From the NCBI GenBank assembly GCA_030323305.1, contig CP106741.1, forward strand, positions 5,875,501-5,939,500: 64,000 nt of DNA, read 5' to 3'. The notes beneath the pieces are model-generated. The model ran no database searches. It was not told the DNA's origin and saw nothing but the letters and a program-made list of their open reading frames with translations. Position numbers and translations under genes: made by a program. The DNA is from Paenibacillus sp. CC-CFT747. Lineage in GTDB: Bacteria; Bacillota; Bacilli; Paenibacillales; NBRC-103111. Position 1 is the first letter of the stretch. Every line of letters begins with the position of its first letter. Shown here in pieces: positions 53,861 to 64,000 of the stretch.

Positions 53861-55873
53861 TTACAAGGTAAACCGGTCGATCATCCGCTGGAGCTTCTCC
53901 GCCATGCCGGACAGGTGGGCGGAGGAGGAGGTCAGCTCCTGCATGGAAGCCAGCTGCTCCTCCGAAGCGGCGGACACGCTTTGAATGTGGCTCGCGGTCT
54001 GCTGGGCCGACGACGAAACTTCCTCCATGGCGGCCGCCACCTCTTCGGCGTTGGCCGACATCTGCTCGGCAACCGCCGTCACGTCGTGAATCTGTCCTAC
54101 CATTTGCGCGGTAGATTCCTCCATGTCCCGGAATGCGCTTCCTACCTGGAGGGTAACCACCGCCCCCTTGTCCATCTCCTTCGCCACCTTCTCGGACATC
54201 CCGCCTGCCGCTGCATCGATCAGCCCGGCCATCTGGAGAATGACGTCTTGGATGTTATCCGCCGTCCGCTTGGACTGGTCGGCCAGCTTCCGGATCTCCT
54301 CCGCCACGACGGCAAACCCTCTGCCGTGTTCTCCCGCACGCGCCGCCTCTATGGAGGCGTTCAACGAGAGAATGTTGGTTTGTCCCGCCATATTCGCGAT
54401 GGCATCATTCATATCGCGGATTTGCGCCGACAGCCGGGACAGTCCGGCTATCGTGTCCGCCGATTCGTCCACCGCTTGGCGGATGCTCATCATCTGCCCG
54501 TTCAATTCCCGGACGGCCGCACTGCCAGCCTGGGCATGACGTTCGCTTTGGGCGGCGGAAGCCGCCATCTCCCCGGCGGCCGAAGCGACCTTCTGAATCC
54601 CTTCCGCCATTTCCTGAGCCGCAAGCGACGTTTCCCCGGCAGCCCGGGATTGAATTTCGCCCGCCCCCGCCACCTGCTGGATGGAATCCGTCACATGCTG
54701 GACGGAATCGGCCGTCTGTTCGGTTATGGCGGTCATTTGCTGCGAGGAGGCGGCCAGCTGCCCGGACATATCGGCCATTTCCCGGACAAGGGCGGACAAG
54801 GAAGCCGCCATCTCGTTAAAGCTTCCCCCGAGTGCGCCGAATTCGTCCTGGCGGGTGAGGCGGATACGTCCTCCGAGATCGCCTGCCTTGATGCGGTCCG
54901 CTCCCTGCTGAAGCTCCCGAAGAGGGCCAAGAATGGTGCGGAGAAACAACCAGGCCATCAGGGAGAAAACCAGAATCGAGCCGGCCACCACCTCCATCGT
55001 TCTCGTCAGAATCGGCCTCGCGGCCTCGCTGTATTCCGCCACCTCCATGGTCCCCGCTATCTTCCAGCCTGTAAGCGCATTCGTCGCAAAGAGCGCTTCC
55101 TTCGGTTTACCATCCAACCGATAGGCAATCGTTCCGCTGTCGTTCTTGAGCATGTACTCGTATTGGCTGCCCGCAGCGGCGGTCCCCGGAGGGTTTTTGG
55201 GATGGACGATATACTTGCTGTCGCCATCAAGCAGGTACACATAACCCTGCTGCCCGATTTTGACCTCGTGCAGCATTTCACTCAGCTTCTGCAAATCCAG
55301 GTTGAACCCGACCGCTCCTTTGCCGTCCGGGAAAGTTTGGGCGATCGTGATAACCGGCTTTTTCGTCGTGGTCGAAGGGTAGGGCTTGGAGATGGTAACG
55401 CGGCCCGGACTGCTCATGGCCTGGATATACCAGTCTCTTTGGCGGGGATCATACTCGAGCTTGCCGGGATCCGGCGCCTTCATCCACGCCCCGTTATGGT
55501 TCCCGATCGTAACAAGCTCGATCTCCGGGTGCTTGGCTATCCATTGGTCCAGCCGCTTGCGCACTTCCCGGTCCTGGATATCGACTGAATCCGTCGACAG
55601 CTGCTCCGAGAGAAGCTCGGTCTCCTTAACCACCGGCTGGATATACTGCTCGATCATCTGGTTGACGGCCCTTACATTCGTTTCGGCGGAAGAATGAATC
55701 TCGTTCTGGAGCGTGTTCTTCGCGCTTTCGAACGAAAAGTACCCGATTCCGAAGCTCGGAATCAGCAGGATAAGCAAGAAAGAAGCCATCAGCCGGAAGC
55801 GGACGGATGTCCTCCTCCCTGGTCGGAACAGAATGTTGGTCTGGCGGGCTTTTTGTTTTTGAAGGTTTGTCAT
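53861..55873 (-). CDS. Methyl-accepting chemotaxis protein (dCache, HAMP, MCP signal)
   Basis: Intact, 670 residues from ATG 55873 ([16 protein letters not shown]); a longer frame exists but lacks a good site. Two membrane segments (about 30-50 and 300-322) flank a double-Cache sensor (about 55-295, with [13 protein letters not shown], the usual amine/organic-acid Cache motif). HAMP (about 322-375) is followed by the signalling hairpin with the invariant tip [22 protein letters not shown]. It should steer motility through CheA/CheW. The ligand is unknown. There are no chemotaxis genes next to it. Confidence 0.95.
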
Positions 55874-55965
55874 GGCGGTCCCCCGATTGTCATTATTGGT
55901 TGATAGATTAAATATCGGAATTCCGTTTCGTTTCCATAAATCCAATTATTCCCACGACATTCCCA

Positions 55966-56051: not shown

Positions 56052-56957
56052 TCATTCCCGGTAATAACGGAGCAGGTAGCTCACGCCTTCCACAAAGCCC
56101 GGCAGCCAAACCGATTCGGTATGACCTCCCTTCACAATTCGAAGCTCAGCCGGGCTTGCCGGCACTTCCCTTCCTTTTGGATAGAAGCGGTTATACAAGT
56201 TCTTCCGGTGCAGCTCCACGTATAAGCGAACAGCCTGAACCTCCATGTTATAACGCCAAGCGTCCTCCGGGAGGTCCTCCTTCTCGCTCAAGTGATTCCA
56301 ATCCTCGTCACCGGCAAGGATAAAGATAGGGACCTGCCAAGGCTGGGCGGCGTAGCTCGCCAAAGCCGCCGGGTAATTCAGCCGGTCCCACACCTTCCGG
56401 TCGAACGGCTCGCCAAAGGCTCCCCCGATAACAGCCCGTGAAGTCGCCGGGGGCTCCTCCGCCTGAACGGCGGGACTCAGCAGCACCGCTCCCCCAAACA
56501 TTCCCGGATAGGTTAACGCATAGCGGAGGGCACCGTATCCACCCATGGAAACTCCTGCAAGAAACCGGCCTTCCCGCCCGGGAACGGTGTTATACCTCCG
56601 ATCGATCTCCGGAACGAGCCGGCGGATGACCGCGGTTTCGTAGGGACCGTATTTGGGGGAATCAATCCAGAAGCTGTTCCCGCCGGAAGGGGCCACGGCT
56701 ATCATGGCTTCCGGAGAGCCGCTGCCGGCCCTTCCATTCAGGAAAGGCAGGAAGATGTCCCAGCTGGTTTCGTCCCCTCCACTGCCGTGCAGCAAATACA
56801 GCACCGGATACCCGTACTCTCTCCCGGCGTTATAGCCCTCCGGCAAGAACACCCGGTAGCGGAAAGAATCGGGAACCGGATCCTCCCCGAAGGAGTGCAG
56901 CTCGTGGGTTTCGGTTCTCCCGAAGCAAGCCTGGCCGGAGATTGCCTCTTCTTTCAT
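56052..56957 (-). CDS. Esterase, alpha/beta hydrolase of the esterase D/feruloyl esterase family
   Basis: Intact, 301 residues, cytosolic. Oxyanion region YLLHGSGGDETSWD, nucleophile elbow FLAGVSMGGYGALRYA (Ser), acidic residue near ILAGDEDW, and catalytic His in VKGGHTESVW. The family includes acetyl, feruloyl and other carbohydrate esterases. It is the last gene of the ARH/ribokinase operon, seven bases after rbsK, and could remove an ester from the imported ribosylated compound. Start at 56957 follows GAGTGAG. Confidence 0.85.
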   Translation of the reverse strand: MKEEAISGQACFGRTETHELHSFGEDPVPDSFRYRVFLPEGYNAGREYGYPVLYLLHGSGGDETSWDIFLPFLNGRAGSGSPEAMIAVAPSGGNSFWIDSPKYGPYETAVIRRLVPEIDRRYNTVPGREGRFLAGVSMGGYGALRYALTYPGMFGGAVLLSPAVQAEEPPATSRAVIGGAFGEPFDRKVWDRLNYPAALASYAAQPWQVPIFILAGDEDWNHLSEKEDLPEDAWRYNMEVQAVRLYVELHRKNLYNRFYPKGREVPASPAELRIVKGGHTESVWLPGFVEGVSYLLRYYRE

Positions 56958-56964
56958 CTTAGAC

Positions 56965-57867
56965 TCACTCCCGAGCTAAACCGACTTCGGACAGGAGGGG
57001 GATGGAGGCCTGAGCACCTAAACGCGTCACGGTGATGGACGAAGCATACTGGGCAACATCCACCGCTTCATCCATCGATTTGCCGGATGTGATCATGGCA
57101 GCGAGCGTACCGGAGAAGGTATCCCCGGCAGCCGTTGTATCGATCGCCTCTACCTTGCGCCCTTCCTTGTACACGTTATCCGTACCGTTGTAATACACGA
57201 GCCCTCTTTCGCCCAGCGTAACCACCGGATAACGGATCCCCTTCTCCTTCAGGATCGTCAGTGCTCGGAACGCATCCGCTACCGTATGGATGCTCACCCC
57301 AGTGTACGTGCGGCATTCGATCTCATTGGGTGTAAAATAATCCACCCCGCGAAGAAGCTCGTCAGCCAAGGGCACGGCGGGAGCTGGATTCAGAAAGATC
57401 GGTACTTTCCCCTTGACCAGACGGATGGCTTCGGTTACGGCATCGAGCGGAATCTCCAGCTGCAGCATGACCGCTGCGGCAGAAAGCAATTCTTTCTGAA
57501 ACGCTTGAATATATGCGGGGGTCATTCTGCCGTTGGCGCCCGAATCCAGAATGATGCGGTTGTCTCCCTCGCAGACGGTAATGGCAGCTACGCCTGTCGT
57601 AATCCCCTTCTCGACGGCCACGTATTCGGTATGCACGCCAAAGCCCGTAAGGCTCTCCAGAATGGATCGTCCGAACAGGTCATCCCCAACTTTCCCCAGA
57701 AACCACGTATCCGCCCCCATCTTGGAGCAGGACACCGCCTGGTTGGCCCCTTTCCCGCCGCCGGACAAGAAGAAGCCTCGGCCGCTAATCGTCTCTCCAG
57801 CCTCTGGGATCCGACTCGTCTGCATCACCATATCCATATTGGCGCTGCCGATGACGACGATCTTCAT
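56965..57867 (-). CDS. rbsK: Ribokinase (PfkB family)
   Basis: Intact, 300 residues. Phosphorylates ribose to ribose 5-phosphate using ATP. N-terminal IGSANMDMVMQTSRIPEAGE, substrate block FFLSGGGKGANQAVSCSKMG, and PfkB signature EAIDTTAAGDTFSGTLAAM with the catalytic Asp. The asparagine and Gly pattern agrees with ribokinase more than with fructokinase, but other pentoses cannot be excluded. The start overlaps the stop of the large ARH gene by four bases, so the two are coupled; this ties the glycohydrolases to free ribose. Confidence 0.9.
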   Translation of the reverse strand: MKIVVIGSANMDMVMQTSRIPEAGETISGRGFFLSGGGKGANQAVSCSKMGADTWFLGKVGDDLFGRSILESLTGFGVHTEYVAVEKGITTGVAAITVCEGDNRIILDSGANGRMTPAYIQAFQKELLSAAAVMLQLEIPLDAVTEAIRLVKGKVPIFLNPAPAVPLADELLRGVDYFTPNEIECRTYTGVSIHTVADAFRALTILKEKGIRYPVVTLGERGLVYYNGTDNVYKEGRKVEAIDTTAAGDTFSGTLAAMITSGKSMDEAVDVAQYASSITVTRLGAQASIPLLSEVGLARE

Positions 57868-59969
57868 AGCTCCTCCACCTTCAACGTCTTGAAGAAGGTG
57901 CGTGCCGCCCCCAAGGTGCTCACTCCATACATGCCGTAACCGAACCGGCTGTCCTCGGTGCGCAGGACCTCTTCGCCGTCAATATGCAGAGTGATGACCG
58001 AGCCGGCGGCGGTAAGCTTCAGCTCGTAATCGCGGTCGAAGGTCCACTCATAGGGACAGCTTGCCAGCTTATGGAACCCGGAATCGTTAACATAGAGCGA
58101 AACCCCGTTCTCCCCGTCCAAACCGGCATGGTACCCCCGCATGGCTCCTTGGGCGCGGACCGCCAGCATATGGGAATAACCGTTTTGCGGATTAACCGTT
58201 ACCGTCAAGGAATAATCGTCGGAGAAGTAATTACCGGCATAAGCCTCACTCGGCTCGGCCGTCATCAGGTACATCGAGCCGTCGGTCAGACTCCAGGCCC
58301 CGTGGTTATGGGAGAAAGGCGTCACGCAGCCGAAGCTCATCTGCTGCTTGCCGAAATCAACGGAGTATTTGGCTTTTCCGTAAATACGGAACTCATCGAG
58401 GAAGAGGCGGCCCAAGCTCTTCGGCTTGCGGGTGGAGTAGGCTTCCAGAACGAGGCCCACCTCGTCAATCAGTTCTCCATCCGTATCCGGGATCGTAAAC
58501 TCCACCTCCAGCCACTCTCCGTTAATGAGCTTGCGGTAGCCTTGGAGAACCTCTTTTTTGCTTTTGGCCAGCCGGATATAAGGGGCGAAGCCCATCGTCT
58601 CGTTACCGCTCCACTGGTCGAGATATAGCTTCATGGATACCGTTTGACCGGAATAGGCCCGGGGAGAGAAGGTCGGCGTGTACCGCTCGTCACTGAAATC
58701 GTCTCTTGTGTAGAACGGCTTATAGTAGATTTTCGACTGTTCTCCGCGGGTCATGCGGTCGAACAGGATCTCCAGCGAGCCCGTTCCTTTGTAAGCTTTT
58801 TCCGTGGAATGCTTGGCCCGGCAGAAGAACGGATCAGAAATTCGGATGTTATGGGTCGAGCCCGGCAGCTCAAAATCGAAATAAAGATCACGCTCGGTAA
58901 AGCTGTCCTGCAATTCGGAAGGACAAGGCTCCCCTGCGAGCCGGTAACCTAGAATCGCCAGCTCTTTCGCATAAGTCGGAATGTCCAATATGTTTAGGAA
59001 GCCGGAGATGCCCGACATCACGATGGCGTCATTGATGGGAGCGCGGTATTTCTCAGCGATTCCCTTGAGCCCGCAGGCTACCCCCAAGACCGTGCCTACA
59101 TTCCCGGCATTGCAATCCGTATCCCAGCCGCACATGGTCGCAATCTCCACCGTCCGGTTGAAATCTCCCTGCCCGTAAATCATGGCCAAGATGCAGACAC
59201 CGGCATTGGGAATCATGTGGCAGACGCCTTTGTATTTGTCATAGCCCCAGTTCCGCTCCAGCATGTCCCGGCACGCCCGCCAGTCGTCCGGATGCTCCGC
59301 ATGAAAGGCGAGCACGGCCTCCGCTACTTTTTTGTACAGCGAGTCCGGGGGCACTTGAGCCAACCCGGCTTCCAGAATTTCCCCAATGTCGGCCGTTTCA
59401 AAGGCTTTGGAAATGGCGGCACAGAAGAAGCGCGCGCCCCAAACCCCTTCCCCGTCATGCGACACCCTCGCGGCCGCCTCGCCATAATCAGCCGCTTTCT
59501 TCGGGTTACCCGGGTTCACCAGGCCCCAGGTGTCGATAAAAATTTGGCCGCCGATCTGCTCCGCAATGATCCTCCCGTTTTGCCGGATGGAGCCGGACTG
59601 GGGAGCCGGGATGCCGTTCTTCAGGTTGATATAAGCCGTATGCTCCGTGCTGACCCCGTACCCGCCCCACCAGAACATCCCGATGCCTTCGCGCGCATAA
59701 TTCAGCCAGGCCCGCGCCACGTCGTTCGGGGTCACGTCCCGGTCCCTGGCATCGTCATAAAGAGCACGCAGGAAATAGTACGGCCCGTTCGCATCATCAT
59801 CCGCCGCAAAATTTTTGAATTCCTTCACATAATCCGTAATCTCGCCGTAGGTTTGCTGTATTCTTTCATAAGTCCAGATGGTCGGTTCCACCGGAGCCCC
59901 CAGCCTTATGCCAATATTCATCCCCAGGTAACCTGCATAAATCTTTTCCAAGTATTGGTCAGGAATCAA
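57864..59969 (-). CDS. ADP-ribosylglycohydrolase-fold protein with C-terminal beta-sandwich domains
   Basis: Intact, 701 residues. A TTG start at 59969 after GGAGAG overlaps the upstream ARH stop. Residues 1 to about 350 form the all-helical ARH fold (YAGYLGMNIGIRLGAPVEPT). Metal-site residues are AADDDANGPYYF in place of the usual TDDT, and GWDTDCNAGNVGTVLG (DTD site). Residues about 365-530 and 540-700 look like two concanavalin/carbohydrate-binding sandwiches (DFELPGSTHNIRISDP; YSHMLAVRAQGAMRGYHAGL). No signal peptide. The fold cleaves N- or O-ribosyl bonds in characterised members. The added sugar-binding-like domains and importer context suggest a small-molecule or oligosaccharide substrate rather than a protein. 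Substrate unknown. Confidence 0.85.
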   Translation of the reverse strand: MIPDQYLEKIYAGYLGMNIGIRLGAPVEPTIWTYERIQQTYGEITDYVKEFKNFAADDDANGPYYFLRALYDDARDRDVTPNDVARAWLNYAREGIGMFWWGGYGVSTEHTAYINLKNGIPAPQSGSIRQNGRIIAEQIGGQIFIDTWGLVNPGNPKKAADYGEAAARVSHDGEGVWGARFFCAAISKAFETADIGEILEAGLAQVPPDSLYKKVAEAVLAFHAEHPDDWRACRDMLERNWGYDKYKGVCHMIPNAGVCILAMIYGQGDFNRTVEIATMCGWDTDCNAGNVGTVLGVACGLKGIAEKYRAPINDAIVMSGISGFLNILDIPTYAKELAILGYRLAGEPCPSELQDSFTERDLYFDFELPGSTHNIRISDPFFCRAKHSTEKAYKGTGSLEILFDRMTRGEQSKIYYKPFYTRDDFSDERYTPTFSPRAYSGQTVSMKLYLDQWSGNETMGFAPYIRLAKSKKEVLQGYRKLINGEWLEVEFTIPDTDGELIDEVGLVLEAYSTRKPKSLGRLFLDEFRIYGKAKYSVDFGKQQMSFGCVTPFSHNHGAWSLTDGSMYLMTAEPSEAYAGNYFSDDYSLTVTVNPQNGYSHMLAVRAQGAMRGYHAGLDGENGVSLYVNDSGFHKLASCPYEWTFDRDYELKLTAAGSVITLHIDGEEVLRTEDSRFGYGMYGVSTLGAARTFFKTLKVEEL

Positions 59970-61144
59970 TCTTCTCTCCGCCCTTCCTCTTCTATATTCA
60001 GCTGCCGGCCCCTCGCAGTGCTTCTCTCGAGATCCTTGCGGATAATGGCAGCCGCCGTCTCGGCAAAGCGGCTGCTGTGCCCCTCCAGGTCCTGCCTGCT
60101 CGCTGTCTCCAGCTGTTCCTTCTCTTCGCGTGGAATGGCCTCTCCGCCGTGCATCGCCCCCAGAATGGCCCCGATCATGACCCCGATCGAGTCCGTATCC
60201 CGTCCGGAGCTTACGCCGTCCTTGACACTTTCCATAAAGTCCCCCTCATGCAGAACCAAATAACCAAGAGCAAGAGGAAGCTCTTCAATCGAGAACAAGC
60301 GGCTCGGGGTGTAATGATTGGACGGAACACCGACTTTGTCCAGACTCCGGTTAATGTCGTCCCCCATCGGCGAATAGCGGGCAATCGCCCCGTGAAACCT
60401 ACGGACCACTTCTTCCCGGTCTTCCTTCCCGCCCCGCAGGCTTAACGCTATCTCGCAAATGTCCTGGATGGCCCTCTTGGTGCCGTCCTTGGCAAACTCC
60501 CAAGCGGTATCCGCAATATCCTCCGCCGTGACATCCGGCTCGAATGCCTTGGCCACACAGCAGGCCATAACCCCCGCCGCCTCCAGACCGTAGCTCACCT
60601 GGTGGCCGGAAGCAAACAAAATCGCTTCGTCATAAGCGCCCTTCGGATTGCAGGCATTCACGATGCCGATGGGAGCCATATACATGGCCGCACCACAGTT
60701 GACCATGTTTCCGTAGCCGCCCTCCCGAGGCTCGCAGTTGGCGAGAACATGCCGGTTGAACAGATGCTTCTCGGGATAGAACAGCCGGTCCAGAATGAGC
60801 GCTTCCTTTCCCATTTCCGGGATGTAGCAAGGCCGGAAGGCGATTTCCTTCATGAATTCATTCGCCAAGTCATAGGCGTCCAGGTGTCTTCTTTCCGTTT
60901 CATACACCCTCATCAGCGCGAGCGTCATCAAGGTATCGTCCGTCACAATGCCGTTGCCTCTCATTCGGCCCAGTCTTTTATCCTCCGGCCAATCGGCCTT
61001 CCACCACCTCGTATTGACCGTTTCCACTCTTCCATACATGTCCCTGATTTCCCGGTAAGGCATTTTCTCCACAACAGCTCCAAGAGCATCCCCGAAAGCC
61101 GTACCGAAGACCACTCCCCTTACCCTCTCTGCAAAAGAAACCAC
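59966..61144 (-). CDS. ADP-ribosylglycohydrolase family protein
   Basis: Intact, 392 residues from a GTG start at 61144 (VSFAERVRGVVFGTAFGD) that has GGAGG seven bases upstream; a start 21 bases earlier would lie before that site. The two-metal active site is canonical: GNGIVTDDTLMTLAL and SSGRDTDSIGVMIGAILG. Helical single-domain ARH/DraG fold. Enzymes of this fold split the bond between ribose C1 and its partner. It is the first enzyme gene after the binding protein and coupled to the two-domain ARH protein. Confidence 0.9.
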   Translation of the reverse strand: MVSFAERVRGVVFGTAFGDALGAVVEKMPYREIRDMYGRVETVNTRWWKADWPEDKRLGRMRGNGIVTDDTLMTLALMRVYETERRHLDAYDLANEFMKEIAFRPCYIPEMGKEALILDRLFYPEKHLFNRHVLANCEPREGGYGNMVNCGAAMYMAPIGIVNACNPKGAYDEAILFASGHQVSYGLEAAGVMACCVAKAFEPDVTAEDIADTAWEFAKDGTKRAIQDICEIALSLRGGKEDREEVVRRFHGAIARYSPMGDDINRSLDKVGVPSNHYTPSRLFSIEELPLALGYLVLHEGDFMESVKDGVSSGRDTDSIGVMIGAILGAMHGGEAIPREEKEQLETASRQDLEGHSSRFAETAAAIIRKDLERSTARGRQLNIEEEGRRED

Positions 61145-61163
61145 TCCGTTCCCTCCTGTCACC

Positions 61164-61214
61164 ATCCCCGCAAAAGGCGTAACCCGGACTCCCGGTTGAA
61201 TCCTTTGCGGGGAC
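61164..61214 (-). terminator. Strong stem-loop between binding-protein and ARH genes
   Basis: Outer arms GTCCCCGCAAAGG / CCTTTTGCGGGGAT (12-13 bp with one bulge) and an inner ACCGGGAGTCCGGGT stem. There is no T tract on the minus strand, so it is more likely an mRNA stabiliser or attenuator than a full terminator. Confidence 0.6.
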
Positions 61215-63633: not shown

Positions 63634-64000
63634 CTACCAGGCGCCTTTGGAAGTCAGCTTCTTGGAAATAAAATGGGTCGAGAGCACCAGGATGACCCCA
63701 ATCACGCTCTTGAACAGATTGGCAGCGGTTGCAAAAGAGTACTGGCTGTTGATCAAGCCGATGCGGTATACGTAGGTATCGATAACGTCGATGCTGGAAT
63801 TCACGGAGTCGTTCGTAAAGTTCAGAATCTGATCCAGTCCGGCGTTCATGATGAACCCGACATTCAGGGTAAAGATCGTAACCATGGGGATGTACAGGTG
63901 AGGCAGAATGATGCGGGTCATGATGTGCCACCGGTTGGCTCCATCGACATAGGCCGCTTCGTACAGGCTCGGGTTGATTCCCATAATCGCCGCGAAGAAA
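63634..64000 (-). CDS. CUT1 carbohydrate ABC permease (LplB type), cut by window edge
   Basis: C-terminal 121 residues only; the start lies to the right of the window. EAA loop SLYEAAYVDGANRWHIMTRI, then membrane segments (MVTIFTLNVGFIMNAGLDQI, FKSVIGVILVLSTHFISKK) ending KLTSKGAW. First visible gene of the importer/ARH operon. Nine bases separate it from the next permease start. Confidence 0.88.
   Translation of the reverse strand, partial: FFAAIMGINPSLYEAAYVDGANRWHIMTRIILPHLYIPMVTIFTLNVGFIMNAGLDQILNFTNDSVNSSIDVIDTYVYRIGLINSQYSFATAANLFKSVIGVILVLSTHFISKKLTSKGAW

Follow-up and report, generated by a model that had tools for sequence, protein, structure and literature searches.

An ADP-ribosylglycohydrolase-like protein with two added beta-sandwich domains lies in a Paenibacillus operon that points to a ribose-plus-hydroxy-acid pathway

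The ADP-ribosylhydrolase (ARH) superfamily is best known for undoing ADP-ribosylation. In Escherichia coli, the yegTUV genes and their regulator YegW/GgaR bring together an ARH-family gene, a putative kinase for a sugar, a transporter of the nucleoside type and a regulator of the GntR family; the study that describes the system links it to ADP-glucose and glycogen, the functions of the genes being still unknown (PMC10819704). The operon described here likewise pairs an ARH-family gene with a sugar kinase, a likeness in gene content. A second point of reference is the structurally solved citramalate lyase CmlA/CmlB (PDB 9erq, 9evf), both subunits of which are homologous to proteins encoded in the same operon (AtuA and DUF4387, respectively), which makes the operon version a predicted lyase.

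The operon was found in Paenibacillus sp. CC-CFT747, in a stretch of 64,000 nucleotides that is referred to here as the window. Its genes follow each other on the minus strand in the order LacI regulator, a PfkB-family kinase, AtuA, DUF4387, two ABC permeases, a solute-binding protein, a first ARH (here called ARH1), a second ARH (ARH2, the subject of this report), ribokinase and a putative esterase, with DUF4387 (CmlB), AtuA (CmlA), the PfkB kinase and the LacI gene lying beyond the window end (table 1). ARH2 shares 4-bp overlaps with ARH1 at its start and with the ribokinase gene at its end, and judging from this arrangement it is translationally coupled to both. The ribokinase scores 321 bits against the TIGR02152 equivalog model, for which the cut-off is 299.65. 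The PfkB-family kinase upstream of AtuA (L115, 11758–12644, outside the window) gives the operon two sugar kinases. In this assembly (one contig, 90.65% complete) frameshifts split the solute-binding protein, one permease and AtuA; they are probably sequence errors, because the same genes are open in another genome of the same species (G023; AtuA over the part covered). Opposite-strand open reading frames over the solute-binding protein and permease genes of some related loci (clusters 11, 15 and 16) were taken as spurious.

Table 1. Features of the ARH2 locus, with positions counted from the first nucleotide of the window.
Feature	Position	Strand	Basis
ARH2, three-domain ARH-superfamily hydrolase	57864..59969	−	ORF, Pfam, homologues, model, fold search
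ARH catalytic domain, residues 1–355	58905..59969	−	PF03747 E 8e-53; ARH3 Z 31.6
Metal motif 1, D57-D58-D59 (DDD for TDD)	59793..59801	−	invariant in 54 homologues
Metal motif 2, D283-T284-D285-C286	59112..59123	−	invariant in 54 homologues; other ARHs compared
Beta-sandwich 1, residues 361–537, CBM22/CBM4-like jelly roll	58359..58889	−	model, fold search
Beta-sandwich 2, residues 545–701, CBM66-like	57867..58337	−	model, profile, fold search
ARH1, canonical ARH (TDDT / DTDS), 4-bp overlap with ARH2 start	59966..61165	−	Pfam, motif comparison
Ribokinase (TIGR02152), 4-bp overlap with ARH2 end	56965..57867	−	above curated cut-off
Putative esterase (PF00756), 7 bp after ribokinase	56052..56957	−	Pfam
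ABC solute-binding protein, frameshifted here, open in same-species genome	61237..62715	−	comparison with G023
ABC permease (LplC type), frameshifted here, open in same-species genome	62746..63619	−	comparison with G023
ABC permease (LplB type), runs past window end	63634..64000	−	neighbourhood beyond window

The ARH2 reading frame starts with TTG after a purine-rich stretch and encodes 701 amino acids. The only Pfam family above its cut-off is ADP_ribosyl_GH, which matches residues 14–306 (180.3 bits against a curated cut-off of 26.2), and none of the NCBIfam models applies to the protein. An AlphaFold2 model built from a 54-sequence alignment is confident throughout (pLDDT 93.2, pTM 0.92) and consists of a helical domain, which superimposes on the ARH3 structure with an rmsd of 2.9 Å over 306 residues, followed by two separate beta-sandwiches. 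Neither a signal peptide nor a transmembrane stretch was seen: the first ARH helix begins at residue 6 and the most hydrophobic 19-mer reaches a KD value of 1.44. The original prediction of a cytosolic ARH fused to two C-terminal sandwiches, made from the sequence of the window, is thus upheld by the model, by fold matches to both added domains and by the lack of a recognizable export signal. Full-length homologues with all three domains occur in Bacilli, Clostridia, Halanaerobiales and Spirochaetes, so the fusion is not a product of chance.

ARH2 shares with the known ADP-ribosylhydrolases ARH3, ARH1 (here the described enzyme of that name, as distinct from the operon gene) and DraG (PF03747) the overall fold, acidic metal motifs and a conserved glutamate (E28 in ARH2, invariant in 54/54 homologues), but differs from them in the motifs themselves, in its two extra sandwiches and in its ribose-catabolic operon. 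Where functional ADP-ribosylhydrolases carry TDD and DxD(S/T), ARH2 has D57-D58-D59-A60, the three aspartates being invariant in all 54 homologues and position 60 being A, V or T, together with DTDC, in which an equally invariant cysteine (54/54) takes the place of the usual serine or threonine. The replacement of TDD-T by DDD-A with retention of DTD had been read correctly from the single sequence, a reading that overlooked Cys286. This cysteine is unusual in a second metal motif, and since the site is still acidic despite the Thr-to-Asp change, a metal could fit. In place of the GxAMR-like segment of canonical ARHs, ARH2 has a different, strongly conserved segment, IGGQIFID. Because other genomes of the family encode more distant ARHs that also combine DDD or NDD with DTDC, the signature identifies a clade and is no peculiarity of ARH2. 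Fold and superfamily membership would be compatible with ARH2 reversing the ADP-ribosylation of proteins or nucleic acids, as DraG, ARH1 and ARH3 do, or serving as the immunity protein of an ADP-ribosyltransferase toxin; however, the altered motifs and the coupling to a ribokinase and an importer make such a role very improbable in our view, and no transferase, nitrogenase or toxin gene is present among the annotated recurring neighbours.

Both added domains have folds of the carbohydrate-binding module (CBM) type. The CBM66 of levanase recognises terminal fructofuranose. The second sandwich of ARH2 (residues 536–701 in the comparison) matches this module from Bacillus subtilis (PDB 4azz, 4b1m) with a Z-score of 23.3, an rmsd of 1.6 Å over 153 residues, 20% identity and a profile E-value of 5.5e-8, but unlike its counterpart it belongs to a cytosolic protein and is fused to an ARH; its residues R605 and Y613 are invariant. 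The first sandwich, folded alone (pLDDT 90), matches modules of the CBM22, CBM4 and CBM27 types at Z-scores of about 12.5–15.6 (best 15.6); CBM22/CBM4-type modules, with which it shares just 11–15% identity, reach about 15, although other jelly-roll modules and MAM domains score close to CBM22. Across the 54 homologues 82 positions are invariant in the ARH domain against 12 and 8 in the two sandwiches, which are thus kept as domains, less so as sequences, and form the least conserved part of the protein. Given this difference, glycan binding and a structural or accessory function are equally probable. A CBM fold by itself shows no sugar binding, and the sandwiches may serve the structure, the shaping of the substrate or the recognition of a furanose.

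The sandwiches had originally been taken to signal a bulky glycan-like substrate, and the two CBM folds, along with the sulfatases that adjoin some distant ARH2 homologues, would fit an enzyme whose substrate, an oligosaccharide that contains ribose or a bulky glycan, is gripped by both domains. We nevertheless consider this unlikely, as ARH2 is cytosolic and supplied by an ABC importer, its conserved partners handle ribose and a small hydroxy acid, the sandwiches are poorly conserved relative to the catalytic domain, and none of the constant neighbours is a secreted enzyme that degrades polysaccharides. Presumed entry through a CUT1-type importer, combined with the ribokinase and citramalate-lyase-type context, instead indicates a small ribosyl conjugate, so the glycan claim is not supported in the form in which it was made.

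The hydroxy-acid side of this reading comes from the lyase genes. The AtuA neighbour is homologous to CmlA (E 5.5e-141) and the DUF4387 neighbour to CmlB (E 6.3e-24), in both cases over nearly the full chain; the two genes are adjacent, and each subunit has one match in the genome. We compared 80 related loci from Bacilli, Clostridia, Halanaerobiales and Spirochaetes, most of which keep the importer, ARH1, ARH2 and a ribokinase-like gene. CmlA and/or CmlB is encoded in 63 of them (AtuA in 62, DUF4387 alone in one), whereas nine have neither AtuA nor DUF4387 and possess a CitE-type lyase. Its partner is CitF (citrate-lyase alpha) in five loci, a CoA-transferase III in three and an ADP-forming CoA ligase in one. 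One of these loci (L105) has CitE fused to an ACP domain beside CitF, the arrangement of an ACP-type citrate lyase. No locus combines the two lyase types, the chance of such a lack of overlap being 2e-7 (hypergeometric, treating loci as independent); in the remaining eight loci neither type is seen, and seven of these eight lie on short pieces of sequence. In a set of 104 genomes from the family, DUF4387 is present in 24 of the 26 with an ARH2 orthologue and in five of the 78 without one (Fisher 1.5e-16), and as both exceptions carry CitE and a CoA ligase in the same operon, one lyase type is present in 26/26. Both P values overstate the case, because related genomes are not independent events. 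When unrelated enzymes of the same chemistry replace one another within an operon, this argues strongly that the operon requires their reaction. A ribokinase-like PfkB gene is present in 59 of the 80 loci; in the other 21, some of them on truncated contigs, no ribokinase was seen, and some of the kinases fall below the ribokinase cut-off.

Taken together, the lyase swap and the ribokinase suggest an imported compound that gives rise to ribose and an acid resembling citramalate or citrate. The operon context as a whole points to an undescribed pathway of this kind and not to protein ADP-ribosylation or glycan digestion. On balance we favour, by a modest margin of confidence, the view that ARH2 is an intracellular metal-dependent ribosidase and that the operon takes apart an imported conjugate, with D-ribose and a citramalate-like acid as the products. 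The CUT1-type ABC importer would bring in the small conjugate, and ARH1 and ARH2, the sole conserved glycosidase candidates of the operon, would hydrolyse its bond or bonds, presumed to be ribosyl because of the superfamily to which both proteins belong. Ribokinase would convert D-ribose to ribose-5-phosphate, and the CmlAB-type lyase (in other species the CitE-type lyase together with a partner for CoA or ACP) would split the released 2-hydroxy acid, by analogy into pyruvate and acetate or acetyl-CoA. The sandwiches would most probably contribute to the form or extent of the active site, or to assembly. This scheme presumes hydrolytic activity of ARH2, a single substrate as the source of both products, and citramalate, not citrate or malate, as the acid; the lyase could also serve a second substrate. 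We know of no natural ribosyl-citramalate or ribosyl-citrate compound. A text search of the literature returned no ribosyl-citramalate compound, and no description of the pathway was found in literature on DUF4387, AtuA (where matches were swamped by Portuguese words), operons with ARH and ribokinase, CmlAB, or ribosyl together with citramalate; for DUF4387 itself no literature, and for CmlAB no paper, was found among the sources searched. Esterases recur in or beside the operon (the window, L046, L062 and L131), a hint at an additional ester bond.

Distant ARH2 relatives that carry the DDD/NDD-plus-DTDC signature extend the association with ribose to other gene contexts. One is part of an rbs-type operon (L118, with LacI, PfkB, RbsD, an RbsA-like protein and a permease), another accompanies a ribokinase, LacI and sulfatases (L124), and in a third locus (L120) two tandem ARH2-like genes are found with a RihA-like nucleoside hydrolase, a strong ribokinase match, an adenine-deaminase-like protein, a SIS-domain protein and UPF0047; ribose genes thus recur in all three although the other neighbours differ. 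The L120 pair, like a distant relative near an adenine-deaminase-like gene in L126, would suit an operon that degrades an unusual nucleoside or N-riboside, with the acid arising later from the base or aglycone and not being linked directly to ribose. We think it improbable that this explains the ARH2 operon, as the L120 and L126 relatives belong to different clades (about 30–43% identity) and no constant base-degrading enzyme is found among the annotated clusters of the orthologous operon. Returning to the ribosidase reading, we put forward more tentatively that the whole DDD/NDD-plus-DTDC clade comprises nutritional ribosidases, and that the operon serves to degrade a so far undescribed natural product that links ribose to citramalate or a comparable hydroxy acid and is common enough for soil, gut and anaerobic bacteria to eat. 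Should a widespread ARH clade indeed release ribose from metabolites that are imported, the annotation ‘ADP-ribosylglycohydrolase’ is misleading in many cases, and the conserved exchange of unrelated citramalate- and citrate-lyase solutions predicts an unknown natural ribose–hydroxy-acid compound that can be searched for directly.

Several minor observations concern the surroundings of these genes. ARH2 relatives with about 42–48% identity are accompanied by one or two sulfatases in L124, L125 and L128, which suggests sulfated ribosides. The other ARH of the Paenibacillus genome (L116, at 2.90 Mb) is a separate DraG-like gene (TDDT), frame-disrupted in the assembly and located beside a NadR-like gene, and was set aside from the present case. 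Downstream of the operon the window contains a chemoreceptor-like reading frame (53861–55945), and MCP genes also follow the operon in several Paenibacillus loci.
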